DNA of 24,573 bases, taken from positions 1 to 24,573 of the IMG/VR virus record IMGVR_UViG_3300021197_000720. One strand, given 5' to 3'. Below, one piece after another: positions 7,009 through 23,422 of this stretch; the stretch's first letter is position 1; each line of letters starts with the position of its first letter. Under the pieces are notes generated by a model. It ran no database searches and was not told where the DNA came from. It worked only from the letters and a program-made list of their open reading frames with translations. The position numbers and the translations under genes are program-made. Origin of the DNA: a virus.

Positions 7009-7338
7009 ATGCAAACTCTTCGTAATCTTAGAAGAATAATCAAAGAGCAGCTAGAAACTGCCGAGTATAAGGCTCTTGTCGAGATTCATTATGACCGTGA
7101 ATTCAAAGTCACAGAGATATTGGATCAGGTAAGAGCTTTATGTGGTATCGTCATCGTCAACTCTGAATCTACCGAGAAGATGACAGATAGAAAAGAAAAA
7201 GTTCTTACAAAGATTAAATTTTATGCACTTGGAACATCCACGAATGAATTCATTGCCAAGATGGTCGATAAAGCATTGTCGATTGACGGTATATACGCAT
7301 TCAGGATCAAGAAAGTAAAAACAAATAAAAAATCCTAA
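7009..7338 (+). CDS. Hypothetical protein with a capsid-targeting-like N-terminus
   Basis: 109 residues, not recognised with certainty. The N-terminus MQTLRNLRRIIKEQL is an amphipathic basic helix ending in I-K-E (residues 11-13), similar in form to T4 internal head proteins. The rest reads as a small alpha/beta domain: KVTEILDQVRALCGIVIVNS, then a charged turn, KIKFYALG, and a helix and strand ending FRIKKVKTNKKS. The VxEILxxVRAL...V.V..S and final AFRIKK resemble small conserved proteins of marine phages. No clear ribosome site precedes the ATG, so the start could be coupled to the gene before it. The function is unknown. Confidence 0.65.
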   Translation: MQTLRNLRRIIKEQLETAEYKALVEIHYDREFKVTEILDQVRALCGIVIVNSESTEKMTDRKEKVLTKIKFYALGTSTNEFIAKMVDKALSIDGIYAFRIKKVKTNKKS

Positions 7339-7347
7339 GAGGTTATA

Positions 7348-8310
7348 ATGAAGAAGCAACGATGTCTTATCATAGACATGTTTAATATGTTCTACCGAGG
7401 ATGGATAGTCGATCCCTCCTTATCAGTTAACGGTGATCCCATTGGAGGACTAAAGGGCTCCTTGAAGATCCTTCAAAAGTTACTACGCGAGACACAACCC
7501 AACAGGGTTTTCATTTGTTGGGACGGACCCGGCGGTTCGCAACGCAGACGAAGCATCAATAAAGGATATAAGGAAGGTCGAAAGCCTGCAAAGGTTAACT
7601 GGGATAGCACCTTTCTTTCACCAGCCGCCAAAGAAGAAAACAGGAAATGGCAGCAAGTTCGTTTAATGGAATACTTTAACAACATGCCCCTGTGCCAGCT
7701 TCTTCTTCCTTCCGTAGAAGCAGATGATATCATCTCGTTTGTTAAAGACGCTTCTTGTTTAAAGGGATGGCAGAAAATTATTGTATCTAGCGATAAGGAC
7801 TTCTTCCAACTGGTCGATTCTGAAACAATCCTGTATCGACCAATCCAGAAGCAGCTTTTAAATGAAAAAGACATTCTTGAAAATCACAAGATACACCCTC
7901 AAAATATGGCCCTTGCTCGTGCAATCGTCGGAGATAAAAGCGATAACCTACCTGGAATCGCTGGTATCGGACTAACGACCGTGGCAAATCGTTTCCCTTT
8001 CTTGTCAGATGAGGAATCTCACACCATTGACGAGGTTCTTAAACACTGTCAGAATGCCAACTCAACAGCCAAGGCATACACTAACATCATAGAAGGCGAA
8101 GATATCGTCCGCCAAAATTATAAAATGATGCAGCTTTATGCTCCAAGCATTAGTGTCCAAGGCAAGACATATCTAAGAGAAACAATTAAGAATTGTGAGA
8201 TTACGTTCAATAAGACTGAAATTAAGAAGATGATGATTCAAGATGGCTTCGGAGAATTCAACTGGATAGACCTATATCAAATTTTTAATAGAATATCGGT
8301 TGAAAAGTGA
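7348..8310 (+). CDS. 5'-3' exonuclease / flap endonuclease (T4 RNase H type)
   Basis: 320 residues. It removes RNA primers and 5' flaps with bound metal ions. The PIN-like core acidic motifs appear in order: LIIDMFNMFYRG, VFICWDGPGG followed by the basic arch region RRRSINKGYKEGRKP, then LPSVEADDIISF, IVSSDKDFFQLV, and the helix-hairpin-helix region GDKSDNLPGIAGIG that grips DNA. All expected Asp residues are present. Length matches T4 RNase H (305) and stand-alone Pol I exonuclease domains. GAGG before the ATG gives a clear start. It sits between recombinase and helicase genes, as expected for primer removal at the phage fork. Confidence 0.9.
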   Translation: MKKQRCLIIDMFNMFYRGWIVDPSLSVNGDPIGGLKGSLKILQKLLRETQPNRVFICWDGPGGSQRRRSINKGYKEGRKPAKVNWDSTFLSPAAKEENRKWQQVRLMEYFNNMPLCQLLLPSVEADDIISFVKDASCLKGWQKIIVSSDKDFFQLVDSETILYRPIQKQLLNEKDILENHKIHPQNMALARAIVGDKSDNLPGIAGIGLTTVANRFPFLSDEESHTIDEVLKHCQNANSTAKAYTNIIEGEDIVRQNYKMMQLYAPSISVQGKTYLRETIKNCEITFNKTEIKKMMIQDGFGEFNWIDLYQIFNRISVEK

Positions 8311-8351: not shown

Positions 8352-9731
8352 ATGCAAAAAGAAAACATCAGCTTCTCAAAATATGGCAAGAATTTTCAAG
8401 AAGTACTCGCTTACTTAATTCTTGAAGATCGCCCCTTTTCGGAACAAATAGAAGAAGTGCTTGACGTTAACTTTTTTGAGTTAAATTACTTAAAAGTTTT
8501 TGTCTCTAAGATATTCAACTACCGAGCCAAGTACAAGGTTCATCCTACCTCAAAGATCTTTGATTCTATTATAAGAACAGAGCTAGATGATGAATCTGAA
8601 GCGACACGTGAGCAGGTCCGTCGATATTTTGCCCGCTCAATCGTAAGAGCCCCCACTGACGGCGAATATATCAAGAGCACTGCCCTCGACTTTTGCAAGA
8701 AGCAGAAGCTAAAAGAAGCGATATTAAAATCTGTTAACCTGCTTCAGAACTCTTCGTATGATGAAATCAAGAAATTGATAGACGATGCCTTGAATCTTGG
8801 TATCGATAACGATTACGGTCATGACTTTCAAAAAGATTTTGAATTGCGATATGAGCTTCGAGCACGAAACCCCGTGTCCACCGGATGGGATAAACTTGAT
8901 AACCTAACAAAAAATGGTCTTGGGAAGGGAGAGCTTGGCGTCGTCATTGCCCCCACCGGAGCAGGTAAGTCAATGGTTCTCGCTCATCTGGGAGCAGAAG
9001 CGGTCAAAGCAGGACGCAACGTTGTACACTATACACTAGAGTTGTCAGAAGAGGTGACAGGGCTCCGTTACGATAGTTGTATTAGCGGCGTCCGCCTGGG
9101 CGATCTACACTCAATGAAAGACATGGTGTACGACTCGATTAAGGAAGTCGAGGGTAAGCTAGTCATTAAAGAATACCCAACCAAATCAGCATCAGTTAAT
9201 ACTTTGCACTCTCATCTAGAAAAGTTACAAAAAAATAAAACAAAAATTGGAATGATTATAGTAGATTACGGTGATTTGCTCAAACCAGTGGGAAGTTATA
9301 GGGAGAAAAGGAATGAGTTAGAGTCTATTTATGAAGGACTCCGTGCTTTAGCACAAGAATTTGAATGTCCTATCTGGACAGCCTCCCAAACTAATAGGTC
9401 TGGTTTGAACGCAGAAGTAATTACGATGGAATCTATCTCGGAAGCGTTTAGTAAATGCTTTGTTGCAGATATGATATTTTCAGTTTCACGAACAATAGAA
9501 GATAAGAACACAAACCAAGGTCGCATTTTTGTAGCTAAAAACAGAAATGGACCAGATGGGCTTGTATTTCCTATCTTTATGGACACATCAAGAGTAAAAA
9601 TAAAGATACTGGACGCCCCAATTGTTTCAGATGAAAGAAAGCCGGTGAATAAACTTGTTGAGGTTTATCAGAAAAGCAAGAAGGAGTTCAATAGCGCAAA
9701 AAATGAAGGAAGTAAAGATGCAAACAGCTAA
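8352..9731 (+). CDS. DnaB/T4 gp41-like replicative helicase
   Basis: 459 residues. A hexameric 5'-3' helicase that unwinds the fork. The N-terminal 150 residues are helical, like the DnaB primase-contact domain. The RecA-like motor domain follows: VSTGWDKLDNLTKNGLGKGELG, Walker A PTGAGKS (Lys206), HYTLELSEEV, the Walker B-like IGMIIVDYGDLL, and TASQTNRSG, a typical DnaB-family motif. No primase gene is seen in this window. The ribosome site is weak (GGGACAG). The last 14 bases overlap the start of the ribonucleotide reductase gene, so the two are probably made together. Confidence 0.9.
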   Translation: MQKENISFSKYGKNFQEVLAYLILEDRPFSEQIEEVLDVNFFELNYLKVFVSKIFNYRAKYKVHPTSKIFDSIIRTELDDESEATREQVRRYFARSIVRAPTDGEYIKSTALDFCKKQKLKEAILKSVNLLQNSSYDEIKKLIDDALNLGIDNDYGHDFQKDFELRYELRARNPVSTGWDKLDNLTKNGLGKGELGVVIAPTGAGKSMVLAHLGAEAVKAGRNVVHYTLELSEEVTGLRYDSCISGVRLGDLHSMKDMVYDSIKEVEGKLVIKEYPTKSASVNTLHSHLEKLQKNKTKIGMIIVDYGDLLKPVGSYREKRNELESIYEGLRALAQEFECPIWTASQTNRSGLNAEVITMESISEAFSKCFVADMIFSVSRTIEDKNTNQGRIFVAKNRNGPDGLVFPIFMDTSRVKIKILDAPIVSDERKPVNKLVEVYQKSKKEFNSAKNEGSKDANS

Positions 9732-11574
9732 TCAAATATTATCAGATATCACAGTGCATATGAAATATGCACGTTATTTACCCAAGAAAGAAAGACGGGA
9801 AACTTGGAAGGAACTTGTTTCGAGAAACAAGAAGATGCATATTAAAAAGTATCCCGAGCTAAAAGAAGAGATTAATCAGGCGTACAATTACGTCTATGAT
9901 AAAAAAGTCCTCCCTTCTATGCGCTCTATGCAGTTTGGCGGCAAACCCATTGAGGTCGCACCCAACCGTATTTATAATTGCGCTTATCTTCCTATTGATG
10001 ATTGGCATTCCTTTAGCGAGGTAATGTTTCTTCTCCTTGGAGGTACTGGTGTAGGGTATTCAGTTCAAAAGCACCATGTTGAAGCTCTTCCAGAAGTTCA
10101 GAAACCAAGCTCAAAAAGAACTCGCCGGTTTTTAATTGGCGATTCTATTGAAGGCTGGGCTGATTCCGTTAAGACTTTGCTTCGTAGCTATTTTCACGGA
10201 GGATCTAGGATAAGGTTTGATTTTTCAGACATCCGTCCCAAGGGTTCGCGACTAGTTACTTCTGGTGGCAAAGCACCGGGACCTCAACCTCTCAAAGAGT
10301 GCTTATTAAAAATCGAGGGTATACTTGACGCGAAAGAAAATGGCGACAAACTTGAGCCAATTGAAGTACACGATATTGTTTGTTATATTGCCGATGCTGT
10401 ACTTGCCGGTGGCATTCGTCGCGCTGCTCTTATCTCTCTTTTTAGCGCCGACGATGAAGAAATGCTCGCCTCAAAAGCTGGTAAATGGTGGGAAACTAGC
10501 CCCCAGCGAGGTAGAGCGAACAATTCAATTGTCCTGATGAGACACCGCATAACAAAAGAATACTTTGCGGAGCTATGGGATAGAGTAAAAGCCTCAAATT
10601 CAGGTGAACCAGGGTTTTATTTTACTAACGATAAGGACTGGGGGACTAACCCTTGCTGCGAGATCGCTCTGCGACCATATCAGTTCTGTAATTTAACAGA
10701 AGTGAATGTTAGCGACGTTGACTCACAGGAAGAATATGAAGGAAGAGTCCAAGCTGCATCGTTTATCGCAACTTTGCAAGCAGGGTACACTGATTTCCAT
10801 TACCTACGCGATATCTGGCAACGTCACACGGAAAAGGACGGACTCATTGGCGTGTCTATGACGGGCATTGCCTCCGGTAATGTTTTAGGTCTTGATATGA
10901 CCAAGGGAGCGAGACTGGTTAAAAAAGAAAACCAAAGAGTTTCAAAGCTGATAGGAATCAAACCAGCAAGCCGCACAACCTGCGTAAAACCTGCTGGAAC
11001 AACTTCCTTGACACTAGGAACTTCATCTGGGATTCATGCTTGGCACAACGATTACTATATCCGCCGTATCCGAGTCGGTAAGAACGAGCCTATCTATACT
11101 TATCTCTCTATTAACCATCCCGAGCTTGTTGAAGACGAGTACTTTAGACCGCACGATACGGCTGTAATTTCAGTACCACAGAAAGCTCCTGAAGCTGCGA
11201 TTACACGACACGAAAGTGCCTTACAACTCTTAAAAAGGGTGAAGAAGGTCAGCCAAGAGTGGATTAAGCCCGGTCACCGCCGAGGACAAAACACTCATAA
11301 TGTCTCTGCCACTGTATCGATTAAAGATTCAGAGTGGATCGACGTAGGCGAGTGGATGTGGGAAAACAGAGATTACTATAATGGGCTTTCTGTTTTACCT
11401 CATAACGGGGGCTCATATGTACAGGCTCCGTTTGAAGACTGCTCCTCAGAGAAGTATGAGAAGCTGGCTGAAGCCCTCAGTAGCGTGAATTTATCTAAAG
11501 TAGTTGAGCTTGAAGACAACACAGATCTCAAAGGAGAGCAGGCGTGCGCAGCAGGAGCCTGCGAGGTCACTTAA
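9718..11574 (+). CDS. nrdJ: Adenosylcobalamin-dependent (class II) ribonucleotide reductase, monomeric RTPR type
   Basis: 618 residues from the ATG at 9718, chosen for its AAGGAAG site and a 14-base overlap with the helicase gene. It reduces ribonucleotides to deoxyribonucleotides using vitamin B12 cofactor, needing no oxygen. Residues line up with the Lactobacillus leichmannii enzyme: Cys88 in NCAYLP (redox Cys119), NPCCEI with Cys313 and Glu315 (thiyl Cys408, Glu410), and Cys324 in FCNL exactly 11 residues later (Cys419). The tail Cys610 and Cys615 have the C-x4-C spacing of the swinging pair (Cys731/736). PAGTTSL is the phosphate loop. It is shorter than the 739-residue reference. The host or its surroundings must supply B12. 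Confidence 0.93.
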   Translation: MQTANQILSDITVHMKYARYLPKKERRETWKELVSRNKKMHIKKYPELKEEINQAYNYVYDKKVLPSMRSMQFGGKPIEVAPNRIYNCAYLPIDDWHSFSEVMFLLLGGTGVGYSVQKHHVEALPEVQKPSSKRTRRFLIGDSIEGWADSVKTLLRSYFHGGSRIRFDFSDIRPKGSRLVTSGGKAPGPQPLKECLLKIEGILDAKENGDKLEPIEVHDIVCYIADAVLAGGIRRAALISLFSADDEEMLASKAGKWWETSPQRGRANNSIVLMRHRITKEYFAELWDRVKASNSGEPGFYFTNDKDWGTNPCCEIALRPYQFCNLTEVNVSDVDSQEEYEGRVQAASFIATLQAGYTDFHYLRDIWQRHTEKDGLIGVSMTGIASGNVLGLDMTKGARLVKKENQRVSKLIGIKPASRTTCVKPAGTTSLTLGTSSGIHAWHNDYYIRRIRVGKNEPIYTYLSINHPELVEDEYFRPHDTAVISVPQKAPEAAITRHESALQLLKRVKKVSQEWIKPGHRRGQNTHNVSATVSIKDSEWIDVGEWMWENRDYYNGLSVLPHNGGSYVQAPFEDCSSEKYEKLAEALSSVNLSKVVELEDNTDLKGEQACAAGACEVT

Positions 11575-11577
11575 TAC

Positions 11578-11605
11578 TTGACTTTATAATTTTAGTTGCT
11601 ATAAT
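11578..11605 (+). promoter_or_regulatory. Sigma70-like promoter after the RNR gene
   Basis: TTGACT at 11578-11583 and TATAAT at 11600-11605 with a 16-base spacer, in the 60-base gap between the reductase and the next small gene. It would drive the GroES and PEP carboxykinase genes. Confidence 0.7.
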
Positions 11606-11634
11606 ATGAGATATAACTACCCAAGGAGAATTAA

Positions 11635-11889
11635 ATGAGTGAGCAAGAAAAAACCAAAGACGAATACATTGTTGACTTTATTAAAGCGTTCAAAGCTGTA
11701 GAAGACGAGATGGAGCCTTACAAAGAGCACCGCCGAGACTTAAAGAAAAATTATGTTGATAACGGCTGGATCACGAAAGACGAGCTTCGTTATGTCATTA
11801 AGGCGTACCGCATGCTATCCTCTGATAACGAAAATTTTGAACACTTCTCCGAGATCTATGATAAGATTTCTTCAAAGCTAGGAATTTAG
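11635..11889 (+). CDS. Hypothetical small helical protein
   Basis: 84 residues, highly charged and predicted mostly helical. The stretch MEPYKEHRRDLKKNYVDNGW followed by ITKDELRYVIKAYRML faintly recalls GapR (DUF2312) nucleoid proteins, in which a coiled coil is followed by a short helix pair, but the match is too weak to name it. AAGGAG lies ahead of the ATG, and the promoter at 11578 is just upstream, so it is the first gene of a small unit with the GroES-like and PEP carboxykinase genes. Confidence 0.7.
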   Translation: MSEQEKTKDEYIVDFIKAFKAVEDEMEPYKEHRRDLKKNYVDNGWITKDELRYVIKAYRMLSSDNENFEHFSEIYDKISSKLGI

Positions 11890-11890
11890 T

Positions 11891-12181
11891 ATGAATCCAG
11901 TTCCCTTTAACCGTCACCTCCTTGTCTCTAAACAGTTAGAGCAAGGAGAAGAAAATAAGAGTTTGGTCCTTGTACCGGAAGAGTATAAGCAGCGTGAGGC
12001 ATTTGCCATGGTAAGTGTCGTCACGCCAGCCCAAGACTGTAACTCTCAATGGTCACCGGGGGATACGGTTATCGTACCAACTCATACAATTGAGACTCTA
12101 TCTGTAGGTGGTGAGCAATATCATCTAGTATTAGAAAACCACGTACTAATGGGGCTTCTCGATAATATTAAAGGTGAATAA
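11891..12181 (+). CDS. groES: GroES-like co-chaperonin (gp31 role)
   Basis: 96 residues, the normal GroES length. It caps the GroEL ring; in T4, gp31 replaces host GroES so that the capsid protein can fold. The GroES pattern is visible: PVPFNRHLLV at the start, LVLVPEEYK in the mobile-loop region, PGDTVIVP in the core, and QYHLVLENHVLMGLL at the end. No GroEL gene is in the window, so the host chaperonin is the likely partner. AGGA precedes the ATG. Its TAA stop overlaps the ATG of the PEP carboxykinase gene by one base, which implies coupled translation of the two. Confidence 0.85.
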   Translation: MNPVPFNRHLLVSKQLEQGEENKSLVLVPEEYKQREAFAMVSVVTPAQDCNSQWSPGDTVIVPTHTIETLSVGGEQYHLVLENHVLMGLLDNIKGE

Positions 12182-13647
12182 TGAGAAATCTATCCCGCGC
12201 AGCGCTGGTCTACTGGACCTTGTTTAAAAAAGTTAATAAGCCCCGTCTTACAAACGACGGGGCTTTAGTCGTTGAGACTACTCCTCATACAGGACGATCG
12301 CCAGATGCGAAGTATATTGTAAGAGACGAGATTACTGATAAACTCGTTGACTGGGAGAATAATCAGCCTATTAGCGAAGAAGAGTTTGAAGAGTATTCAA
12401 GCAGCTTCCTCTCAGAGGCAGAGACCCATCGCTTTTATGAGCAAGATTTGTATGCCTGTGCCGATGACAAGCATCAGCTTCCTATTCGAGTTAACACCAT
12501 AAAGCCCTGGCACTCTTTGTTTGCAAAGAACATGTTCTTTAAACCATCCCCAGAGGAGATTAAAGATTTCAAGCCAGAGTTTCAAGTTTACTCAATGCCA
12601 TCGTACACTGAAGAACCAAGGGTGATCATTTCCTTCAAGAAGAAGATAATCTTAATCAGTGGCACAGATTACGCAGGTGAGATTAAGAAAAGTGTGTTCA
12701 CAGTGCTGAACTTTTTATTGCCTCAAAAGGGCGTACTGCCAATGCACTGTTCTGTAAGCCTCCGCGAAAAAGATCACAAGTCTACCGTCTTTTTTGGATT
12801 ATCCGGCACAGGAAAGACGACGCTATCCTCGGATACCTACAGCTATCTTGTCGGAGACGACGAGCATGGCTGGTCATCAACCGGACTGTTCAACTTTGAA
12901 GCGGGATGCTATGCCAAGACTATACGCCTCTCCCCAGATAAAGAGCCTTTGATTTTTGACGCCTGTCATAAGTTTGGAACGATTTTAGAAAACGTAGTCG
13001 TTAAAGATGACGACGCTGACTTTGATGATGCGACCCTCACAGAAAATACCAGAGCTTCTTACCCTTTAAGTTTCATCGATAACATATGGCTTGAGCCCCG
13101 GTGTGAACATCCAACTAATATTATCATGCTGACGTGTGACGCTTATGGGGTCCTCCCACCAGTGGCACGCTTAGATCCTGACAAGGCAGTCGAACAGTTT
13201 TTGCTTGGCTATACAGCAAAAGTGGCAGGAACAGAAAAAGGAGTCACGGAGCCAGAGCCCACGTTCTCGCACTGCTTTGGCTCCCCTTTTATGCCTCTGC
13301 GCCCTGGAGTATATGCAGAGTTATTGCGCTCCAAGATAAAGAAGCATAATGTTAAGTGCTGGCTTGTGAACACTGGTTGGCAAGGCGGACCATATGGCGA
13401 AGGCTCCCGTATCGATATCGCAGTCACACGTAAGATCATCGACGCAATCCAGGATGGGGACTTTGATGAGGATAAATGTAAGTATGTTTGGCATTCTTAC
13501 ACCGATCTTGAAGTTCCTGACAGCGACAAGGTTCCTTTGGATATGAGATTTCCAGAGCGCGGCTGGGCTTCTAAAGAGAAATATGTTGAGACCGCACGAA
13601 GCTTAATGAGCAAGTTTATTAATCGTTTAAAAACAATGACTTTGTAA
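12181..13647 (+). CDS. pckA: ATP-dependent phosphoenolpyruvate carboxykinase
   Basis: 488 residues against about 530-540 in bacteria, with the shortening mainly at the N-terminus and at the extreme C-terminus. It converts oxaloacetate and ATP to phosphoenolpyruvate, CO2 and ADP, the first step of gluconeogenesis from the TCA cycle. All recognisable active-site parts are present: TGRSP (Arg39), DYAGEIKK (Tyr164, Lys169/170), MHCS (His189), the kinase loop GLSGTGKTTLS (206-216), VGDDEHGW (Asp226/227), TENTR (Arg291) and TAKVAGTEKG, then LVNTGWQGG. So it looks active and of the ATP, not GTP, type. It lies between a GroES-like and a lytic transglycosylase gene, with phage codon style and no sign of decay. 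A metabolic role during infection is inference. AAAGGTG precedes the start. Confidence 0.95.
   Translation: MRNLSRAALVYWTLFKKVNKPRLTNDGALVVETTPHTGRSPDAKYIVRDEITDKLVDWENNQPISEEEFEEYSSSFLSEAETHRFYEQDLYACADDKHQLPIRVNTIKPWHSLFAKNMFFKPSPEEIKDFKPEFQVYSMPSYTEEPRVIISFKKKIILISGTDYAGEIKKSVFTVLNFLLPQKGVLPMHCSVSLREKDHKSTVFFGLSGTGKTTLSSDTYSYLVGDDEHGWSSTGLFNFEAGCYAKTIRLSPDKEPLIFDACHKFGTILENVVVKDDDADFDDATLTENTRASYPLSFIDNIWLEPRCEHPTNIIMLTCDAYGVLPPVARLDPDKAVEQFLLGYTAKVAGTEKGVTEPEPTFSHCFGSPFMPLRPGVYAELLRSKIKKHNVKCWLVNTGWQGGPYGEGSRIDIAVTRKIIDAIQDGDFDEDKCKYVWHSYTDLEVPDSDKVPLDMRFPERGWASKEKYVETARSLMSKFINRLKTMTL
12238..12265 (+). other. Strong hairpin inside the start of pckA
   Basis: The arms 12238-12247 (AAGCCCCGTC) and 12256-12265 form a perfect 10-bp stem around an 8-base loop. 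It resembles the stem of an intrinsic terminator but lies within codons 20-29 and is followed only by TTTA on this strand. On the opposite strand a six-T run follows after six bases. Confidence 0.7.
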
Positions 13648-13766: not shown

Positions 13767-14339
13767 ATGATTAATTTTACACTCGCACTAGCGACTTTAC
13801 TAACAACAGCAACTACAGACCCTTCCTACCAAGACTTGGTATTCGAAGCACAATACTCCTGCCACAATGCGAACCCAGACACCGTTAAAGAAGAACTTTT
13901 ATGGGACTTGGTAAAGGTAGAGAAGAAGTACAACGTGCCATCATCTTTAAAAGGAATGGTCTTAGCCGCCTCTTGCTCGGAGTCTGGATACAATCCAGCA
14001 GCAAAGGGAGACTACAGGGTTATCAAGAACAAGAGGTTGCCAATGGCAATCGGTATCCTTCAGCAATGGCCTTGGTATGAAAAGGCTTATGGGATCAATA
14101 GAACGAAGCACGTTGAGGCAGCAGATGCCTGGATGAAGCACATACAGAAGAAACTTCATGTTGCCGAGAGGAAGTGCGGATTCAAAAATCTAAAAAAGAA
14201 ATGGATTGCAGCTTGGGTCACAGCTATTAGGTATCCGAAACCAGAGGGCAGGTGCTATGAAAAGCCCCGTCACCTTCGGATCCTTAAAAAGTGGCACCGT
14301 AATATCAAGAACTCCAAAAACAAAGAGGATGGATGCTAA
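13767..14339 (+). CDS. Exported lytic transglycosylase / lysozyme-like protein
   Basis: 190 residues. A hydrophobic N-terminus (residues 1-17, small residues before Asp18) suggests a signal peptide, although no early Lys/Arg is present. The SLT-like core includes LKGMVLAASCSESGYNPAA, in which Glu72 is in the position of the catalytic Glu (E-S-x-xNP), followed by MAIGILQQWPWYEKAYG, the equivalent of the G-L-M-Q-l motif. The C-terminus is very basic. Four Cys (32, 70 and two later) could form disulfides outside the cytoplasm. It likely cuts peptidoglycan at lysis or entry. It lies away from any recognisable holin in this window. Confidence 0.75.
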   Translation: MINFTLALATLLTTATTDPSYQDLVFEAQYSCHNANPDTVKEELLWDLVKVEKKYNVPSSLKGMVLAASCSESGYNPAAKGDYRVIKNKRLPMAIGILQQWPWYEKAYGINRTKHVEAADAWMKHIQKKLHVAERKCGFKNLKKKWIAAWVTAIRYPKPEGRCYEKPRHLRILKKWHRNIKNSKNKEDGC

Positions 14340-15178: not shown

Positions 15179-15992
15179 CTTCAATATGCCTTGGCATGAT
15201 TCGCTAATGCCAATCTCCCAAAACTACTTGGCTGTTGAAAGGGCGGTTATTGAATGTGCTTATGCTGGTTGCGAGACAATATGGCTCATCTGCCATACGG
15301 ACATGCAGCCTTTGATAAGGCATCGTCTTGGAGATTATGTCCAAGACCCTGTTTGGATTAATCGCAGATATGAACTTCAAAGAGACAAATTCCACAAGCC
15401 AGTGCCTATCCACTATGTACCTATCCATCCAAGAGATAGAGAGAAGCGTGACTGCTTATCTTGGAGTGTGCTGTACGGCGCATGGATGTCTCAAAAGGTA
15501 TGCGGAAGGTTAAGCATTCATTTGAAACCTGATATGTATTACACAGCATTCCCTTATGGAGTCTACCACGTTTCGAAAGTTCGGGAGCATCGAAAAGCCA
15601 TATCTTCCAAGAGACCTTTTTATCTTTCACACAATGGAAAGACAATAATTGATGGTGAGTATCTAGCCTTCACAGCAACCCCCGATACGTTTAGGAGGTT
15701 GAGTTCCGAAGTGGCTGTAAAATCAACTGGTGTTTATGAGGACGAAGCGAGAACAAAGAAACTACCTATTGAAGAAAGATATTCTTATAGGCACTTTAAA
15801 CTTGAGCAAGTTTTTGATACACTGTCTTTAGACGGAGCAAAGGTTCACGAATTGGAAAGATACTGGAGAATTGATTCTTGGGAAGAATACAAGAAGTATA
15901 TGGCTGTCGAGAAGGCACATATCAGAAGGCCAGGTAAATCCCTCTTGTCTTACAAAGAATGGAATGGAATTGGAGTAGACGAAATTGAATGA
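15126..15992 (+). CDS. Nucleotidyltransferase-like protein (GT-A/NTP-transferase fold)
   Basis: 288 residues. The start HLAGIVPVAGQPLDF, followed by LMPISQNYLAVERAVIECAY and AGCETIWLICH, follows the pattern of sugar-nucleotide and other NTP transferases: a Gly-rich nucleotide loop, a substrate helix, then aGc..I.lv. The usual GxGxR lysine/arginine signature is altered, with PVAGQPL in its place, so the substrate is unclear. The C-terminal half has Tyr/Arg-rich segments and no known motif. The start at 15126 is needed to include the N-terminal loop and makes a 53-base overlap with the previous gene. Its TGA overlaps the cysteine synthase start by 8 bases. A role in modifying a nucleotide, sugar or protein is inference. 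Confidence 0.6.
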   Translation: MSGFHLAGIVPVAGQPLDFNMPWHDSLMPISQNYLAVERAVIECAYAGCETIWLICHTDMQPLIRHRLGDYVQDPVWINRRYELQRDKFHKPVPIHYVPIHPRDREKRDCLSWSVLYGAWMSQKVCGRLSIHLKPDMYYTAFPYGVYHVSKVREHRKAISSKRPFYLSHNGKTIIDGEYLAFTATPDTFRRLSSEVAVKSTGVYEDEARTKKLPIEERYSYRHFKLEQVFDTLSLDGAKVHELERYWRIDSWEEYKKYMAVEKAHIRRPGKSLLSYKEWNGIGVDEIE

Positions 15993-16839
15993 CATAAACA
16001 ACCTAATTGGTAACACACCATTTATAAAGCTAGGTGAAAAGCTTTATGCAAAGCTAGAAACTTATAACCCTTCGGGCTCTATCAAAGACAGGATGGCTTC
16101 TTATATCCTTTCGAAAGCCTTAGAGCGTGGAGATCTACAAGGAAAAGACACCATTGTGGTGGCTTCCTCGGGAAATACTGGCATCGCTTTTTCAATGCTC
16201 TCGGCTGCCCACAGCCTTGATTGTGTTGTGATTATGCCTTGCAATATGAGCGAAGAACGAAAGCAAATGATGAGGGCTTACGGCGCGACCATTGTTGAGG
16301 TTGGACCAAGTGCGTTCAAAGATGCAATATCTCTCCGTGATAAGATGCTGGAAGAGAATTCTAATTACTGGTCACCCAAACAATTCAGCAACCCTGACAA
16401 CATTGAGTGCCACCGTCGCACCACTGCTGTAGAGATAGCGCAATCTGTCCTAGAAATACCCGCACGTTTGTCAGCCCTTGTAAGCGGAGCCGGTACAGGG
16501 GGAACGATTATGGGATGTCAATCCTACTTCCCTCGGTTATGGAAGGAAACCAAAATGCTCCTAACAACCCCAGCCGAAGATGCAGCTACTCATGGGATAC
16601 AAGGGATCAATGACGGCGCTGACTTTTTAGTGGACAAGAACCTGATCGATGAGGAGCTACTGGTGAGTACTGAAGACGCCAAGCAAAGAGCCAGCCAGCT
16701 AGCAAAAGAAAATGGCTTGCTCGTCGGCATCAGTTCTGGCGCAAACGTCCTCGCCGCCGAGCGATGGATAGAAAAAAACAATCCCACCGGAGTGGTGGTA
16801 ACCTTTCTTTGCGATAGAGGAGAAAGGTATTTAAGTTGA
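15985..16839 (+). CDS. Cysteine synthase-like PLP enzyme (O-acetylserine sulfhydrylase family)
   Basis: 284 residues. The family makes cysteine from O-acetylserine (or a related serine ester) and sulfide. The PLP Lys34 is in NPSGSIKDR, the substrate loop ASSGNTG is at 60-66, the phosphate-binding GAGTGGT is mid-protein, and GISSGAN and CDRGERYLS close the fold. All key residues are present. It is shorter than CysK (about 320) and ends right after the GERYLS motif, so the C-terminal dimer segment is trimmed. The only in-frame start is the TTG at 15985, because a TAG lies three codons upstream and the ATG at 15989 is in another frame. GGAG precedes it. Tight coupling to the two upstream genes suggests a joint pathway. 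Confidence 0.88.
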   Translation: MNDINNLIGNTPFIKLGEKLYAKLETYNPSGSIKDRMASYILSKALERGDLQGKDTIVVASSGNTGIAFSMLSAAHSLDCVVIMPCNMSEERKQMMRAYGATIVEVGPSAFKDAISLRDKMLEENSNYWSPKQFSNPDNIECHRRTTAVEIAQSVLEIPARLSALVSGAGTGGTIMGCQSYFPRLWKETKMLLTTPAEDAATHGIQGINDGADFLVDKNLIDEELLVSTEDAKQRASQLAKENGLLVGISSGANVLAAERWIEKNNPTGVVVTFLCDRGERYLS

Positions 16840-16872: not shown

Positions 16873-17181
16873 ATGAAATATGATGATTTAAAAAGCGTTA
16901 TTAGAGAAGTTCTTGATGCCGATGACGGCTTTTGGGCTCGCACGCTGAAGACCAAACCGCAAACCCGAATGGTCCCCTCGGATCCTCGACCCGCACCCAA
17001 GGAAACTCCACGAGTAGCGGATAATCTAGATGGCGCTGAAGTGTTTGCTACAGAGGAAGAAGCTCGTAAGCATATGAAAGCCACCTTTGATTCAACGGAT
17101 GCGGTAAGGCGCATCGTCCGTAAAACCAAAGAAGGTCAATACTTCGTTCAGGTCGTCAACGATCCAAAAAAAGGAACTTGA
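16873..17181 (+). CDS. Hypothetical protein with a capsid-targeting-like N-terminus
   Basis: 102 residues, not recognised. The N-terminus MKYDDLKSVIREVLDADDG has the form of T4 internal head protein leaders, with I-R-E at residues 10-12 as a possible protease site. A Pro/Arg-rich linker (residues 33-50) leads to a small domain, VFATEEEARKHMKATF and RRIVRKTKEGQYFVQVV, which could be a helix plus two strands. CGGAG before the ATG supports the start. It lies between the cysteine synthase gene and the promoter of the polymerase gene. Confidence 0.65.
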   Translation: MKYDDLKSVIREVLDADDGFWARTLKTKPQTRMVPSDPRPAPKETPRVADNLDGAEVFATEEEARKHMKATFDSTDAVRRIVRKTKEGQYFVQVVNDPKKGT

Positions 17182-17192
17182 TTAAATAAGGC

Positions 17193-17221
17193 TTGACTTG
17201 TCACGATTCCAACACTATAAT
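17193..17221 (+). promoter_or_regulatory. Consensus sigma70 promoter for the DnaE gene
   Basis: TTGACT at 17193-17198 and TATAAT at 17216-17221 with the ideal 17-base spacer, in the 64-base gap before the polymerase ATG at 17246. The best promoter in the window. Confidence 0.8.
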
Positions 17222-17245: not shown

Positions 17246-20200
17246 ATGCAACGCACCAAATCATCTATCCCTTTTGTCGGACTACACGCCCATTCAGTAG
17301 CAGGCTCGCCCTTCGATGCCCTTGGGTATCCCCAAGCTCATATGGACTATGCCTATAGTAATGGAGCCGATGCCCTAGCCCTAACTGACCACGGCAATAT
17401 GAATGGACTGGCTTATCAGATTCTTCATGCTAAAAAGATGAAGTCAGAAGGCAAAGAGTTTAAGCCAATCTATGGTTGTGAGGCATACTTTACTCCATCC
17501 GTAAAAGAGTGGAAAGAGGAATACAATAAAGCCCAGCAGGATAAGAAGACTGCATCTAAAGCGAAGAAAGAATCAGAGAAGATTACAGCCGAAGACGAGT
17601 CTGCCTCTAAGCGCAAGTCTAATAAACTCCGCAGCCGAAGCCATCTTATACTGCTCGCACAAAACCAAGAAGGATTAAACAACATCTTTAATCTTATTTC
17701 GGAATCCTTCCAGGGCGATAACTTCTATCGATATCCCCGCTTGGATTTCGAACTTCTTAAGAAGTACAACAAAGGAATTATTGCTTCCTCTGCTTGTCTC
17801 GGAGGCGTTTACGCCACCTTGTATTGGAACAATAAGGACAAGGGAGAAGAAGCTGTTTTAGAGGCTATGCGAGACACAACCAAAAAAATGTTAGATATTT
17901 TTGGTGACCGTTGGTATGGCGAATTACAGTGGATTAAGTCAAAGGACCAGCATAACCTTAATCACTACATCCTTCAAATGAAAGAGGAATTTGGAATTAA
18001 GGTAATCTCTACAGCAGATAGCCACTACCCGAGCCCTGACGCTTGGAAGGATCGAGAGCTATACAAACGATTAGGAATTCTACCAGCCATAACTAAATAC
18101 AAGGACAAGCCCGAAGAGTTACCGGACTGGCTCTCGCCTGATTTGCCGGAAGAGTTGGAGGAAATCGGCTATGAGTTATATCCTAAAAATGGCGATCAAA
18201 TGTGGGAATCCTATAAGGAATACAGCAAGTATTCTGACAGACCTTATAATGATTCTGACGTTCTTGACTCTATTACTCTTACCCATGATATTGCTTTCAA
18301 TCGTATTGAAGGGTTTATCCCTGATAATAAAGTTCGTTTGCCCTCGTTTGTGGTCCCAGAAGGACAGACAGCTACCAATGCACTGATTGCTCAATGTATT
18401 GATGGCTTAAAATCCCTTAAGCTCAATAAGAAAAATGAGTATGTAGAGCGCTTGCGACACGAATTGCGTGTCATCGATGAAAGAGGCTTCAGCAAATACT
18501 TCCTGACGATGAAGGCAATCGCGGATAAAGCCAACGAGCATATGCTTTCAGGTCCAGGCAGGGGCTCTGCCGCTGGGTCCCTAGTGGCATATGTTTTAGG
18601 AATCACGCAGGTTGACCCTATCAAGTATGGGCTGCTGTTCAGCCGCTTCCTGCGATCTGACGCCCAAGACTATCCAGATATCGATTATGATGTTTCTGAT
18701 GCTTTCGGTCTTAAGGAGATCCTGGCAGAGGAGTGGGGTCATAAAACTGTTATCCCTATTTCAAACTTTAATACTCTACAGCTTCGATCTCTGATCAAGG
18801 ACATCAGTAAGTTTTATGACGTCCCGTTCAAAGATGTCAACTCTGTTACGTCAGTAATGGAAAAGGAAGCTATGCCCAAAGCCAAGGCAAAGCATGGCAT
18901 CAAAGCAGGAGTATACGCTCCGACCTTCGAAGAGGTTATGGAGTTCTCTGAATCCCTCCAACGGTTCTTAAGAAACTACCCCCAGATTAAAACACACGTC
19001 GAGGCTTTGTTTGGTCAACGTCGTTCAACCAGTAGGCACGCAGGCGGCGTCGTAATCGGAGAAGACCTGGATAAGCATATGCCTTTGATTAGTTCAGGCG
19101 GTATCTTGCAAACTCCTTGGTCAGAAGGACAGAACGTCCGTCATCTTGAGCCTCTTGGCTTTATTAAGTTTGACCTTCTTGGGCTTTCAACTCTCGAAAT
19201 GGTTGAGTCCTGTATTAGGCACCTTCTCCAGAGAACCAAAGGCGTTGAAAATCCAACCTATGATGACGTTAGGTCCTGGTACAATAAGAACCTGCATCCT
19301 GATGTCATTGACCTGGAAGATAAAGCAGTCTATAAGCATGTCTTCCACAAGGGCAACTTTGTTGGCATCTTTCAGTTCACAAACGAAGGCGCACAGAAAT
19401 TCTGTAAAAGCGCAAAGCCAAATAACATTATTGATATCTCTGCTATCACTTCGATTTACCGTCCCGGTCCTCTGTCCGCCAAGGTAGACCAAGAGTACGC
19501 GAAAGCCAAAAAGAACCCTGATGGGATTCACTATGTCAACAACGTTGTTAAAGAAGTAACATCGGAGACAGCAGGGTTCCTCATCTTCCAGGAGCAGATT
19601 GCTCTTCTTGCTCATAAGCTGGGCAAGGACATCAGCTTGGATGAAGGGAACCTCCTCCGAAAGCTCTTGACAAAGAAAGGAACAGGCAAGGGCGCACAAG
19701 AGAAAGAAAAGATCAGAGTTAAGTTTGTGGATGGTTGCCTTGAAAAGGGTATCGACCGAGCCACTTCCGGTGCAATGTGGAAGAAGTTTGAGTACTTCTC
19801 TGGCTACGGCTTCAATAAAAGCCACGCGGTATCTTACTCCGTTCTCTCTTACCAGTGTGCTTGGCTATACTACTACTATCCAGAGTGCTGGGCTGCTGCG
19901 TTCCTCGACAAGGAGCCTGAAGCTCGCAAGGAGTTTGCAGTAAACCTGGTTCAAAAATATGGATTCAACGTTCAAAAGGTTGATGTTAATAAGTCAACAC
20001 AGCAATGGGAGATAGCCGAGGGCAATGTTCTGATACAACCCTTAAGCTCAATTAAGGGACTGGGTGACAAAGCCATCGAGCAGATATTAAACAACAGACC
20101 TTTCAACACTCCCGAGGAGCTTTTGTTCAGTGAGAACGTTGTTTACTCCAAACTAAATAAGAAAGCTCTTGAAGCTATGTGTGAGAGTGGCGCTTTAGAT

Positions 20201-20698
20201 ACTCTGGTGGATGAAAGGTTTACAGGGTTAAAACACTTTTGGCTTTCCTGTGTCAAGAATCGACCAAAGACCAAGAAGAAACTTGTCACTCACATTGAAG
20301 AGTATAAGACTAAAGACGACTTTACTCCAGAACAGCGAATTGAACACATCTCTTCGAGAACGGGCATCTACCCCTTCGACCTTGTGATGACTCATGAGAT
20401 TAGAGAGATGATTGACCGCTACAAAGTACCGCCTCTTGGCAACTGGGACCAAGCCCTCAAAGCAGCCTGGTTTATACCGAGGGAAATTGTAAAGCGGAAG
20501 ACCAAGACAGGTCGAGAATACTGGATTGTAAAAGTAATTGATGAAACATCTACGATCTCTACAATCCGCTGCTGGGGCATTGTACCAGGCTCGGATGTAC
20601 TTCACCTGAACAGGGTATACGCATCTTCTTTGGAATACCATCCTATCTGGGGATATTCCACGAAGTCTATTAGGCAGAACTTTAAACTATTAGGTTGA
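17246..20698 (+). CDS. dnaE: DNA polymerase III alpha subunit (DnaE type)
   Basis: 1150 residues, close to E. coli DnaE (1160). A C-family replicative polymerase. The N-terminal PHP domain keeps its metal ligands: His14 and His16 (GLHAHS), Asp48 and His49 (TDHGN), the EAYF Glu and ADSHY, so a metal-dependent proofreading activity is possible. The catalytic core has GPGRGSAAGSLVAYVLG, then PDIDYD with Asp478 and Asp480, and IKFDLLGL with Asp643, matching the three E. coli catalytic Asp residues. Further on are FQEQIALLA, GYGFNKSHAVSY, a helix-hairpin-helix (IKGLGDKAIEQI) and a C-terminal OB fold. The tau-binding end of E. coli DnaE seems short. No clamp gene is in this window. GAGG precedes the ATG. 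Confidence 0.96.
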   Translation: MQRTKSSIPFVGLHAHSVAGSPFDALGYPQAHMDYAYSNGADALALTDHGNMNGLAYQILHAKKMKSEGKEFKPIYGCEAYFTPSVKEWKEEYNKAQQDKKTASKAKKESEKITAEDESASKRKSNKLRSRSHLILLAQNQEGLNNIFNLISESFQGDNFYRYPRLDFELLKKYNKGIIASSACLGGVYATLYWNNKDKGEEAVLEAMRDTTKKMLDIFGDRWYGELQWIKSKDQHNLNHYILQMKEEFGIKVISTADSHYPSPDAWKDRELYKRLGILPAITKYKDKPEELPDWLSPDLPEELEEIGYELYPKNGDQMWESYKEYSKYSDRPYNDSDVLDSITLTHDIAFNRIEGFIPDNKVRLPSFVVPEGQTATNALIAQCIDGLKSLKLNKKNEYVERLRHELRVIDERGFSKYFLTMKAIADKANEHMLSGPGRGSAAGSLVAYVLGITQVDPIKYGLLFSRFLRSDAQDYPDIDYDVSDAFGLKEILAEEWGHKTVIPISNFNTLQLRSLIKDISKFYDVPFKDVNSVTSVMEKEAMPKAKAKHGIKAGVYAPTFEEVMEFSESLQRFLRNYPQIKTHVEALFGQRRSTSRHAGGVVIGEDLDKHMPLISSGGILQTPWSEGQNVRHLEPLGFIKFDLLGLSTLEMVESCIRHLLQRTKGVENPTYDDVRSWYNKNLHPDVIDLEDKAVYKHVFHKGNFVGIFQFTNEGAQKFCKSAKPNNIIDISAITSIYRPGPLSAKVDQEYAKAKKNPDGIHYVNNVVKEVTSETAGFLIFQEQIALLAHKLGKDISLDEGNLLRKLLTKKGTGKGAQEKEKIRVKFVDGCLEKGIDRATSGAMWKKFEYFSGYGFNKSHAVSYSVLSYQCAWLYYYYPECWAAAFLDKEPEARKEFAVNLVQKYGFNVQKVDVNKSTQQWEIAEGNVLIQPLSSIKGLGDKAIEQILNNRPFNTPEELLFSENVVYSKLNKKALEAMCESGALDTLVDERFTGLKHFWLSCVKNRPKTKKKLVTHIEEYKTKDDFTPEQRIEHISSRTGIYPFDLVMTHEIREMIDRYKVPPLGNWDQALKAAWFIPREIVKRKTKTGREYWIVKVIDETSTISTIRCWGIVPGSDVLHLNRVYASSLEYHPIWGYSTKSIRQNFKLLG

Positions 20699-20723
20699 CT
20701 TATACGATAAACGGAGGTATATT
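20695..20723 (+). promoter_or_regulatory. Possible promoter overlapping the dnaE stop and next ribosome site
   Basis: TTGACT at 20695-20700 and TATATT at 20718-20723 with a 17-base spacer. The -10 touches the ATG at 20724 and overlaps GGAGG, so transcripts from here would start inside the zinc-ribbon gene and could serve dUTPase. It may be chance. Confidence 0.4.
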
Positions 20724-20999
20724 ATGTCAAGTATGGATAAGAAATTTAGACGCAAAAAGTATAAAGAAAGTAAGAAAGATATCCAAGAGAAAATGACTTT
20801 CTTTGGGAAGCTCGGTGACCACTGTGAAACTTGTCAGTCACCGTTTGATAAGAAGAATCCGACACAGGTTAAGAGTTGGAATGTTGTTGTCAAAGAAGAA
20901 GAGGGCACCGTCCGCCTTTACTGTCCTACCTGCTGGGGCAAAGCCCTAAGTGTTATTGAGGACTTCAAGAAAAGGATAGAAGCAAAAAATGATAATTGA
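20724..20999 (+). CDS. Small zinc-ribbon protein
   Basis: 91 residues. Two CxxC pairs (HCETCQSPF and LYCPTCWGKAL) about 38 residues apart form a likely zinc ribbon. The N-terminus (MSSMDKKFRRKKYKESKKD) and C-terminus (FKKRIEAKND) are basic. Such proteins bind nucleic acid or RNA polymerase, but the partner cannot be told. CGGAGG gives a strong ribosome site. The last 11 bases overlap the dUTPase start, so the two are coupled. Confidence 0.75.
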   Translation: MSSMDKKFRRKKYKESKKDIQEKMTFFGKLGDHCETCQSPFDKKNPTQVKSWNVVVKEEEGTVRLYCPTCWGKALSVIEDFKKRIEAKNDN

Positions 21000-21447
21000 G
21001 TACACGAGAGTCAGAGACAACGTAATCCCTCCGACAAGAGGGAACCCAAGCGATGCAGGGTTGGACGTTTACTTTAACCCTATTGATGGGCAAGGAGTAA
21101 CGCTCGCTCCTGGTACGAGCGCCCGATTACAAACGGGGCTCCGCTTTGGCGTGCCTCACGGTTACATGCTCCAGGTGATGAATCGGTCATCCGTCGCAGC
21201 GAAGAGGAACCTCGTCGTCGGCGCTCATGTAATTGACTCTGGCTATGACGGTGAGGTGTTTATCGACTTACATAACATAGGCACCACACACCAGATAATA
21301 GGACCACAAGTTAAGATCGCACAAGTGGTCCTACTGCCGATAATCCCTTTCCGTGCGATGGAAACTGAATCAGGAAATCTTTACAACTGGTATCCAATCA
21401 CTATCTCTGATAGGGGCGATGGAGCTTTAGGGAGCACTGACAAGTGA
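20989..21447 (+). CDS. dut: Trimeric dUTPase
   Basis: 152 residues. It splits dUTP to dUMP and pyrophosphate, keeping uracil out of DNA and feeding dTMP synthesis. All five motifs are present: SDAGLDVYF (1), NRSSVAAKRNL (2), VIDSGYDGEV with the catalytic Asp (3), VKIAQVVLLP (4) and SDRGDGALGST (5). Motif 5 reads RGDGALGST rather than the usual RGxGGFGST. Length matches the homotrimeric class. It overlaps the zinc-ribbon gene at the front and the GTG of the endonuclease gene at its stop. It works alongside the ribonucleotide reductase in this genome. Confidence 0.95.
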   Translation: MIIEYTRVRDNVIPPTRGNPSDAGLDVYFNPIDGQGVTLAPGTSARLQTGLRFGVPHGYMLQVMNRSSVAAKRNLVVGAHVIDSGYDGEVFIDLHNIGTTHQIIGPQVKIAQVVLLPIIPFRAMETESGNLYNWYPITISDRGDGALGSTDK

Positions 21448-22067
21448 AAAACCAATTCAAACACAACGAAGACGGAACAACACACATCTTTGTGGAGACT
21501 AAGAATAAATACTTCCCAGGTAAACACACAATCATCATAGACACAGAAGACTGGGATAAGGTTAAGGAGTATAAGTGGGTGATTCAAGCCAACTCACATT
21601 GTAGCTACCCTTATGCCGGAACCAGCATCCCCCATCCAGACGGAGGGTGGTATCATTACACTTGGCAAGGCAAAGAGCTACGACGAAGACGAAGGACGTG
21701 CCTTCAACTCCATCATCTTATAATGGGAAAGCCCCGGAAGGGATTGGTTGTTGACCACATAAACCACGATGGTATTCGCACTGGATTAGACAACAGAAAA
21801 GATAATTTAAGAGAAGTAACCCCATCCCAGAATGGTCAAAACAGGCGGTCCAACAAAAACTCCTCCTCACAATATAAAGGGGTTAGCTGGGATAAGAGAG
21901 AAAAAAAATGGCAAGCACAAATTTTCCACAAAGGAAAAAAAACCCACATCGGCGTCTTCATCTGTGAGCATCAAGCTGCCCTAGCTTACAATGAAAAAGC
22001 TACAGAGTTATGGGGAGAGAATGCCCTATTAAACGAAGTGAAAACTCAAGAGGAGACAGGAGAATAA
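21444..22067 (+). CDS. HNH homing endonuclease with AP2 DNA-binding domain
   Basis: 207 residues starting at a GTG that overlaps the dUTPase stop (GTGA). A strand-rich N-terminus leads to an HNH core: LQLHHLIMG, then VVDHINHDGIRTGLDNRKDN and LREVTPSQNGQNRR, with the catalytic His, the Asn and the metal-binding His visible. An AP2-like DNA-binding domain follows: SSQYKGVSWDKREKKWQA, IGVFICEHQAALAYNEKA and LWGENALLN. This is the common free-standing phage homing endonuclease. No intron or split gene is evident beside it; dut and the next gene both look whole. It may cut the matching site of related phages and spread its own region. Confidence 0.93.
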   Translation: MKNQFKHNEDGTTHIFVETKNKYFPGKHTIIIDTEDWDKVKEYKWVIQANSHCSYPYAGTSIPHPDGGWYHYTWQGKELRRRRRTCLQLHHLIMGKPRKGLVVDHINHDGIRTGLDNRKDNLREVTPSQNGQNRRSNKNSSSQYKGVSWDKREKKWQAQIFHKGKKTHIGVFICEHQAALAYNEKATELWGENALLNEVKTQEETGE

Positions 22068-22068
22068 A

Positions 22069-22374
22069 ATGGAAAAAGCTAAGAAGAAAAAGAAAGGATG
22101 CGGACGCTGCCCCAACGTACCAGAAGGTCAAGGCTGCGCTCCTGCCTCTGAAAAGGTAGACCATCCCCCTCACTACAATGCTTCAAAGCTTGAAGTGATA
22201 GACGCAATTGAAGCGTGGGATCTGAATTTCAATTGTGGGAATGTCATAAAGTATGTCGTCCGCCACAAGCATAAAGGAAGTCCCGTTGAGGATATCGAGA
22301 AGGCAGTTTGGTATCTTAGTCGATACCTGGTGCAACTAAAGGAGGAAGCACGCCATGCAAGTACAAAGCCCTAA
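22069..22374 (+). CDS. DUF3310 (SaV-like) protein
   Basis: 101 residues. The Lys-rich and Cys-rich N-terminus (KKKKKGCGRCPNVPEGQGC) may bind metal or nucleic acid. The core VDHPPHYNASKLEVIDAIEA, NCGNVIKYVVRHKHKG and IEKAVWYLSRYLVQL is the DUF3310 family, often annotated as nucleotide kinase-like in phages although the activity is not firmly established. AGGAGAAT precedes the ATG. Its end overlaps the next gene by 20 bases and contains that gene's strong ribosome site AAAGGAGG. Confidence 0.88.
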   Translation: MEKAKKKKKGCGRCPNVPEGQGCAPASEKVDHPPHYNASKLEVIDAIEAWDLNFNCGNVIKYVVRHKHKGSPVEDIEKAVWYLSRYLVQLKEEARHASTKP

Positions 22375-23422
22375 AGATTGGTCTTATGATGAGAAGCTAA
22401 AAGAAACACTATCATATGATGATGTGTTACTACTACCACAATACAGCGAAGTAATGAGCCGCAAGCATATTGACTTGACATCAGAGCTAGACGATGTACT
22501 AAAGTTAGCACTGCCTGTCATCTCCAGCCCTATGGATACGATTAGTGAATCCGAGATGGCTTTGGCAATGGACAAAGCTGGTGGACTTTCTGTATTACAT
22601 CGCTATAATACAATTGATGAACAGTTGAGAATGGTGCGAAAAGTATTCAAAGCAAATCCCGATGCCAAACTCGCTGCTGCTATTGGAGTCACTGGTGATT
22701 ACTATGAAAGGGCGATGGCTATGTGTGAAGCAGGAGTACAAGTTTTATGCTTGGACGTTGCCCACGGACATCATGCCTTGGTTAAGAAATCCTTGACAGA
22801 ATTAAAGAATACTTTTGCTAGCTCTGTCCATATTATGGCTGGTAACGTGGCGACACTTGAAGCCTTCGATGCCCTATCTGAATGGGGAGCCGACAGCATC
22901 CGAGTTGGAATTGGCGGAGGTTCAATCTGTAGCACGAGACTAGTTACTGGTCACGGGGTGCCTACTTTACAGAGCGTCCTCGATTGTGCAAGAACAAAAT
23001 ATGATACAAAAATTATTGCTGATGGCGGTATTAAGACAACAGGTGATATGGTAAAAGCGTTCGCAGCCGGTGCTGACTTTGTAATGGCAGGCTCTCTTTT
23101 AGCAGGCACTAGGGAAACACCAGGAGATGTCCTTAAAACAAACGACGGAATTAAATACAAAGTCTACAGAGGCATGGCTTCGCGAAACGCGCAAAAAGAT
23201 TATCGTGGAAGATCCTCAACTCCAGAAGGAATTTCTACTACAGTCCCTTACAAGGGCGGTGTCGAGCAAATCCTTCAAGATTTTCACGGTGGGATTGCTA
23301 GTGGGCTATCTTATACAGGCGTTACTACCTTAAAAGAGTTCCAACAAAAGAGTAAATTTATTAAGCAAAGTACTGCTGGACGTACAGAAAGCAGCACTCA
23401 CATTCTAGGAAGGAACAAGTGA
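22355..23422 (+). CDS. IMP dehydrogenase / GMP reductase family enzyme without CBS domains
   Basis: 355 residues. The family interconverts IMP with XMP (dehydrogenase) or GMP (reductase). [14 protein letters not shown] opens the barrel; [40 protein letters not shown] with catalytic Cys192, and DGGIKTTGD follow. There are no CBS domains, and the length and Cys position are those of GMP reductase (about 345 residues, Cys186 in E. coli). The C-terminal [20 protein letters not shown] also looks GMPR-like. The flap ([11 protein letters not shown], then [14 protein letters not shown]) mixes both types: the Arg-Tyr of IMPDH (DRYFQ) is not clear but PEGI is IMPDH-like. So the direction is unsettled. 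The phage would adjust guanine nucleotide pools. The start has AAAGGAGG. Confidence 0.9.

Follow-up and report, generated by a model that had tools for sequence, protein, structure and literature searches.

The window, the whole 24,573-base IMG/VR virus record analysed here, carries a gene for an ATP-dependent PEP carboxykinase (PEPCK) between groES and a gene in the place of a lytic transglycosylase (SLT) (Table 1). This enzyme occupies the point at which a cell switches between sugar synthesis and the TCA cycle. The open reading frame, whose coordinates and family an earlier note on this DNA had given correctly, matches the Pfam profile PF01293 (PEPCK_ATP) with an E-value of 1.1e-178 and 595 bits against a cut-off of 26.5, and covers profile positions 5-458 of 465, a full-length match. 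Among the NCBIfam models, it exceeds the cut-off of the subfamily model NF006821 (400 vs 369), lies just under that of NF006820 (630.6 vs 636), and falls below that of the pckA equivalog TIGR00224 (528 vs 590 bits), a naming threshold and no defining feature of ATP-PEPCK.

One base, 12181, is common to the groES stop codon TAA (12179-12181) and the PEPCK start codon ATG (12181-12183), exactly the overlap that the earlier note had described. As for the flanking genes it named, groES stands on a Cpn10 match, whereas the product of the supposed transglycosylase gene matches nothing in Pfam, even at E 1, and nothing in PHROG, and is called SLT-like only by synteny with the relative L302, whose counterpart is a clear SLT (E 3e-22). 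The groES-PEPCK junction is also present in the related contigs G002 and G003, and a second contig (L002) encodes a protein identical to the window PEPCK over 416 aa; together these exclude an assembly chimera.

Table 1 Features of the window discussed in the text.
Feature	Position	Strand	Basis or remark
DnaB-like replicative helicase	8352..9731	+	phrog_19, E 1.6e-76
Candidate sigma70-type promoter, TTGACT-N16-TATAAT, TG before -10	11578..11605	+	Putative; ahead of o84-groES-PEPCK
o84, 84-aa gene, function unassigned, first in unit	11635..11889	+	Same place in relatives
Co-chaperonin GroES	11891..12181	+	PF00166 (Cpn10) E 1.9e-5, weak, above cut-off; phrog_3188
ATP-dependent PEP carboxykinase, 488 aa	12181..13647	+	PF01293, catalytic residues, model, tree, dN/dS of relatives
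Kinase-1a loop GLSGTGKTT, residues 206-214	12796..12822	+	Alignment with Salmonella/E. coli numbering
Asp226/Asp227 (E. coli D268/D269), metal-binding kinase-2 motif	12856..12861	+	Alignment
SLT-place gene beyond cargo slot	13767..14339	+	Lysozyme/SLT-like by synteny only
Cysteine synthase, CysK-like	15985..16839	+	PF00291, E 3e-59; NCBIfam best cysKM/cysK, below cut-off
DnaE-type DNA polymerase, phage replication hallmark	17246..20698	+	phrog_405, E 1.5e-220; conserved promoter 17193-17221
IMP dehydrogenase/GMP reductase family enzyme	22355..23422	+	PF00478, E 4.5e-109

Active site and predicted fold

The active-site motifs of ATP-PEPCK, reported as intact in the earlier note, were each found at the residue named there. 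R39, Y164, K169, K170, H189, the P-loop from G206, D226, D227 and R291 align with E. coli R65, Y207, K212, K213, H232, 248-256, D268/D269 and R333, the E. coli numbering being that of Salmonella plus one. R449 and T455 (E. coli numbering) are likewise present in the alignment with the Salmonella enzyme. Across 12 other viral homologues the catalytic residues are kept, except for the conservative replacements T255S in LR756504 and T455S in L011. As judged from these residues, the window PEPCK is catalytically complete.

The AlphaFold2 model of the protein has a pLDDT of 88.5, with a weak stretch at residues 345-355, which we take to be the mobile lid of the family. Its fold matches that of Thermus PEPCK (1xkv) with a TM-score of 0.94 at 45% identity, whereas GTP-type chains reach only 14-17% identity and a TM-score of at most 0.76; by its modelled structure, the protein is of the ATP type and not the GTP type. 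The Thermus thermophilus enzyme (1xkv/1j3b/2pc9) resembles it in fold, active-site residues and a GGPYG-type C-terminal motif, and differs from it in length (529 vs 488 aa), the window enzyme being phage-borne and carrying phage-lineage substitutions. E. coli PckA (1aq2 and mutants) aligns one to one at the catalytic residues, although overall identity is about 42% and the lengths are 540 and 488 aa. The window protein is thus some 40-50 residues shorter than these cellular enzymes, and its close phage relatives are likewise short.

The phage genome and the slot behind groES

Phage-type replication genes run throughout the window, bearing out its earlier description as a phage replication region. 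They include members of the families of DnaB-like helicase, UvsX-like recombinase, SSB, DnaE, dUTPase, HNH endonuclease and ribonucleotide reductase (RNR). A search of flanking contigs for structural genes, which the earlier note had proposed, located them on relatives. G002 (75 kb) is collinear with the window, most of its replication proteins being 85-92% identical, and upstream of the collinear block it carries terminase, portal, head protease, major head protein, tail sheath and tail tube; G005 (158 kb) and G009 (185 kb) have the replication block at lower identity, plus a terminase. The T4-type set (terminase, portal, gp21-type protease, capsid, contractile sheath and tube) thus lies on G002 and not in the window itself, and on this gene content we assign the window to a large T4-type tailed phage. 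The nearest cultured terminase, that of Flavobacterium phage immuto, is only 46% identical, which places the phage in an uncultured lineage.

Several other genes of these phages deserve mention. Many unrelated small proteins start with MKITKRQLRRIIKE-like tags, in the window (7009-7338, 16873-17181), on G002 (15086, 24166), on G009 (71214, 125621) and on G010 (17871-23229), with eight on G010 alone. The tags recall the T4 capsid-targeting sequence, which is cut by the head protease, and the tagged proteins are possibly internal head proteins. A VWA protein, secreted lipoprotein-like and with MopE-type repeats, is encoded in the window (232-2157), at G002:54031, G009:46 and G010:48145, and, as assigned by reading, in L146 and L167. 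Myxococcota-like bacteria commonly have such repeats, which may hint at a host of that kind. G009 also encodes a KamA-family radical SAM protein resembling lysine 2,3-aminomutase (154038-155345).

The window contains four matches to the pattern TTGACN{15,18}TATAAT where 0.07 would be expected, a count reached in 0/100 shuffles. DnaE, o288, the SSB gene and the o84-groES-PEPCK unit each have one ahead of them. G002 and G003 conserve the o84 site, which can still be recognised in G009 and G005. These sites suggest that a host-type RNA polymerase transcribes the PEPCK unit together with the replication genes, and that o84, groES and PEPCK probably form one sigma70-type transcript. Since similar promoters precede SSB and DNA polymerase, PEPCK would probably be made in the replication phase. 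T4-type late promoters (TATAAATA) are not enriched near PEPCK, so we make no claim of late expression.

The gene o84 occupies the same place in G002, G003, G009 and G005 (57-82% identity) and in many further relatives. In relatives found via their RNR gene, the order RNR, o84, groES, [slot], SLT-place gene, o281, o288, DnaE recurs, and of the loci examined only three, those of the window, G002 and G003, have PEPCK in the slot. It is empty in L298, whose groES stops at 7847 with the following gene beginning at 7870, and in L319, where 63 bases separate groES from the SLT-place gene. Elsewhere it is filled by ThyX (L312, slot at 11452-12162), by a SAM-lyase-like gene and ThyX (L297, slot at 11463-12909), or by a SAM-lyase-like gene and small ORFs (L299, slot at 11461-12156). 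The groES-SLT junction is a cargo hot spot in related phages, and a place to seek more swapped metabolic or counter-defence genes.

Adjacency to groES is not general, as in G005 and G009 the orthologous PEPCK lies next to dUTPase and IMP dehydrogenase (IMPDH), some 11 kb farther on. PEPCK was also absent from the 10 terminase relatives tested, which are contig fragments of 33-158 kb and so make the absence less than certain. The slots lacking PEPCK and its shifted site in G005 and G009 indicate that the gene is accessory and has moved. Full GroEL genes occur in G003 (24004-25503), G005 (134937-136436) and G009 (142199-143770; above the TIGR02348 cut-off), so the GroEL partner of the phage GroES is likely to lie just past the end of the window.

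Distribution, ancestry and selection

A profile scan of IMG/VR found about 205 contigs with a relative of the window PEPCK, and a terminase match is present on 14 of the 20 larger ones tested. PEPCK has no PHROG family, and a collection of 50,697 phage records yielded one convincing carrier, LR756504.1 (636 kb). The remaining matches resemble host sequence (e.g. Salmonella and Staphylococcus records), most of those to named isolates being likely contaminants. The earlier remark that PEPCK is not common in phages therefore holds for reference phages, although the gene recurs in environmental ones.

Database searches and a tree, both suggested in that note, placed phage orthologues closest (61-70% identity, against 51% for the best cellular sequences) and the window in a virus-only group. 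In a careful tree, the window and eight other viral rows are grouped (support 100/99), separate from all cellular rows, while viral rows outside this clade require further origins; a single viral origin of the 12 viral PEPCKs first sampled was rejected (AU p 0.011). A 99-row tree separates 64 viral rows, including the window, from 22 cellular and 13 other viral rows on a branch with SH-aLRT 99, this tree being quick, unrooted, subject to long-branch warnings and built without eukaryotic PEPCKs. For these reasons we regard it as probable rather than proven that the window PEPCK belongs to an old virus-only lineage which holds most of the sampled viral PEPCKs. In the second large virus group (L164-L213) a search for an NCLDV capsid gave no match, its control matching nowhere either.

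For those phage orthologues that have diverged less, pairwise dN/dS values of 0.035-0.09 were obtained; in pairs that include the window gene synonymous sites are saturated, and selection on it is read via its clade. PEPCK is under strong purifying selection among these phage relatives. G010 (61.7 kb, L126-L128) has only PEPCK, IMPDH, cysK, FKBP and the MopE protein in common with the window and none of its replication block, a gene content that makes cargo exchange between unrelated phages possible.

Viral PEPCKs have been listed before. In the available text of a survey of Kermadec and Diamantina trench sediment viruses, pckA is among the carbon-cycle auxiliary genes on viral contigs, with one sentence proposing a role in gluconeogenesis; unlike the present case, that survey line comes without genome context, tree or selection test (PMC12448302). 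PEPCK is named as a carbon-anabolism gene of ANME-1 viruses, which differ in being archaeal, the accessible text giving no nucleotide type (PMC9894754), and it is listed for giant viruses (PMC9270025). The ATP-PEPCKs of Catovirus and Klosneuvirus (BFVD) are likewise virus-borne (TM-score 0.84), although they belong to eukaryotic viruses and are 35% identical. LR756504.1, an uncultured phage, has an intact ATP-PEPCK of 44% identity that falls elsewhere in the tree and was probably acquired separately. We found no paper on the genome context, ancestry or selection of phage PEPCK, nor any that pairs it with GroES or places it in jumbo phages, in a search that most subscription papers and preprints lay outside. 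The window copy is a new and better-anchored case, with context, tree and clade selection.

A proposed role at the PEP-oxaloacetate junction

The earlier note had inferred an auxiliary metabolic gene, and its viral contig, virus-only lineage, complete active site and clade-wide purifying selection support this. With its phage location, catalytic completeness, selection and accessory status taken together, we class the gene as such on the sequence data. The companions of the gene bear on its possible role. PEPCK contigs carry the cysK family in 16/26 cases and the IMPDH family in 15/26; of the 13 window-side PEPCK contigs that reach 100 kb or more, 11 have the former and 11 the latter, three of these contigs being near-identical. 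The phage collection has matches in 76/50,697 records for cysK and 73/50,697 for IMPDH, a rough comparison that sets a query-based tblastn against a profile search and is affected by shared phage ancestry. Because co-occurring genes share that ancestry, this company is not an independent witness. In G015, cysK lies one short gene downstream of PEPCK. G013 (L133, L134; IMGVR_UViG_3300034403_000255), a separate phage-like contig that encodes a family A polymerase and a 5'-3' exonuclease, has PEPCK in the company of acyl-CoA dehydrogenase, thiolase, FadJ-type, FtsH and arginase-family genes, and its fatty-acid oxidation genes fit a gluconeogenic direction, with carbon from acetyl-CoA and the TCA cycle.

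PEP leads through 3-phosphoglycerate to serine, O-acetylserine and cysteine, with glycine/C1 units and ribose going to purines, a route that would tie PEPCK to CysK and IMPDH. This gene company leans towards PEP formation without settling the direction, for which the earlier note had offered both possibilities. We consider it rather probable that, in a large T4-type tailed phage, an ATP-PEPCK is kept as accessory cargo in the groES-SLT slot, is expressed in the replication phase, and forms PEP that feeds serine, cysteine and nucleotides. The enzyme would most likely convert oxaloacetate and ATP to PEP, CO2 and ADP, drawing TCA-cycle carbon from amino and organic acids into PEP and 3-phosphoglycerate. 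From there, carbon would pass to serine and, via the phage CysK, to cysteine, to glycine/C1 units for purines, and to ribose phosphate, thereby feeding a nucleotide synthesis that the phage IMPDH and RNR would also steer. A phage copy would, in addition, evade host control of pckA.

The phage PEPCK could instead run in the carboxylating direction, from PEP, CO2 and ADP to oxaloacetate and ATP, which would supply aspartate for pyrimidines and adenylate and save ATP. An aspartate demand is plausible given the phage IMPDH and RNR and, on G009 (148857-149855), an adenylosuccinate-synthetase-like protein of 332 aa, below all NCBIfam cut-offs and with a weaker PurZ match, whose consumption of aspartate would fit oxaloacetate formation. 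The solved relatives also include the enzymes of the succinate producers Actinobacillus succinogenes and Anaerobiospirillum, known to run carboxylating. This direction requires high CO2 and PEP, however; it is the Thermus enzyme that matches best in sequence and fold, and both the cysK company and the beta-oxidation genes of G013 favour PEP formation, so that we hold carboxylation to be unlikely, if worth keeping in mind. A protein that is catalytically altered or non-metabolic, serving for example in metabolite binding or host regulation, is quite improbable: the window protein differs at 23 of the 140 columns invariant among ten cellular PEPCKs and scores under the TIGR00224 equivalog cut-off, but the known catalytic residues are all intact, dN/dS among relatives is low, and the NF006821 threshold is passed. 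An origin of the contig from a bacterial chromosome, or as a chimera with a host pckA, can be dismissed despite the host-like PEPCK matches in the phage database, since the phage replication genes, the collinear virion-bearing relatives, the identical protein on a second contig and the higher identity to phage orthologues than to any cellular sequence rule out host contamination for the window contig.

A broader proposal can be made tentatively, and with some doubt: an old phage-specific PEPCK lineage common to large T4-type phages may form, with cysteine synthase and IMPDH, a carbon-to-nucleotide package that is exchanged among phages as a general direction-setting strategy. If true, the direction of the PEP-oxaloacetate step would be set by phages generally, and the gene would have been passed among phages and not repeatedly derived from hosts. 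With a selected copy borne by a phage, in a lineage that is environmentally widespread, the direction in which phages drive central carbon becomes testable on a single enzyme. Phage lambda CI represses the host pckA (PMC6359870, PMC11959909), and the window presents a contrasting extension, a phage that brings its own PEPCK. The roughly 205 viral contigs with such a gene, most of the sampled ones on one probably old virus-only branch, suggest that these phages have gained repeatedly by controlling the host PEP-oxaloacetate junction.
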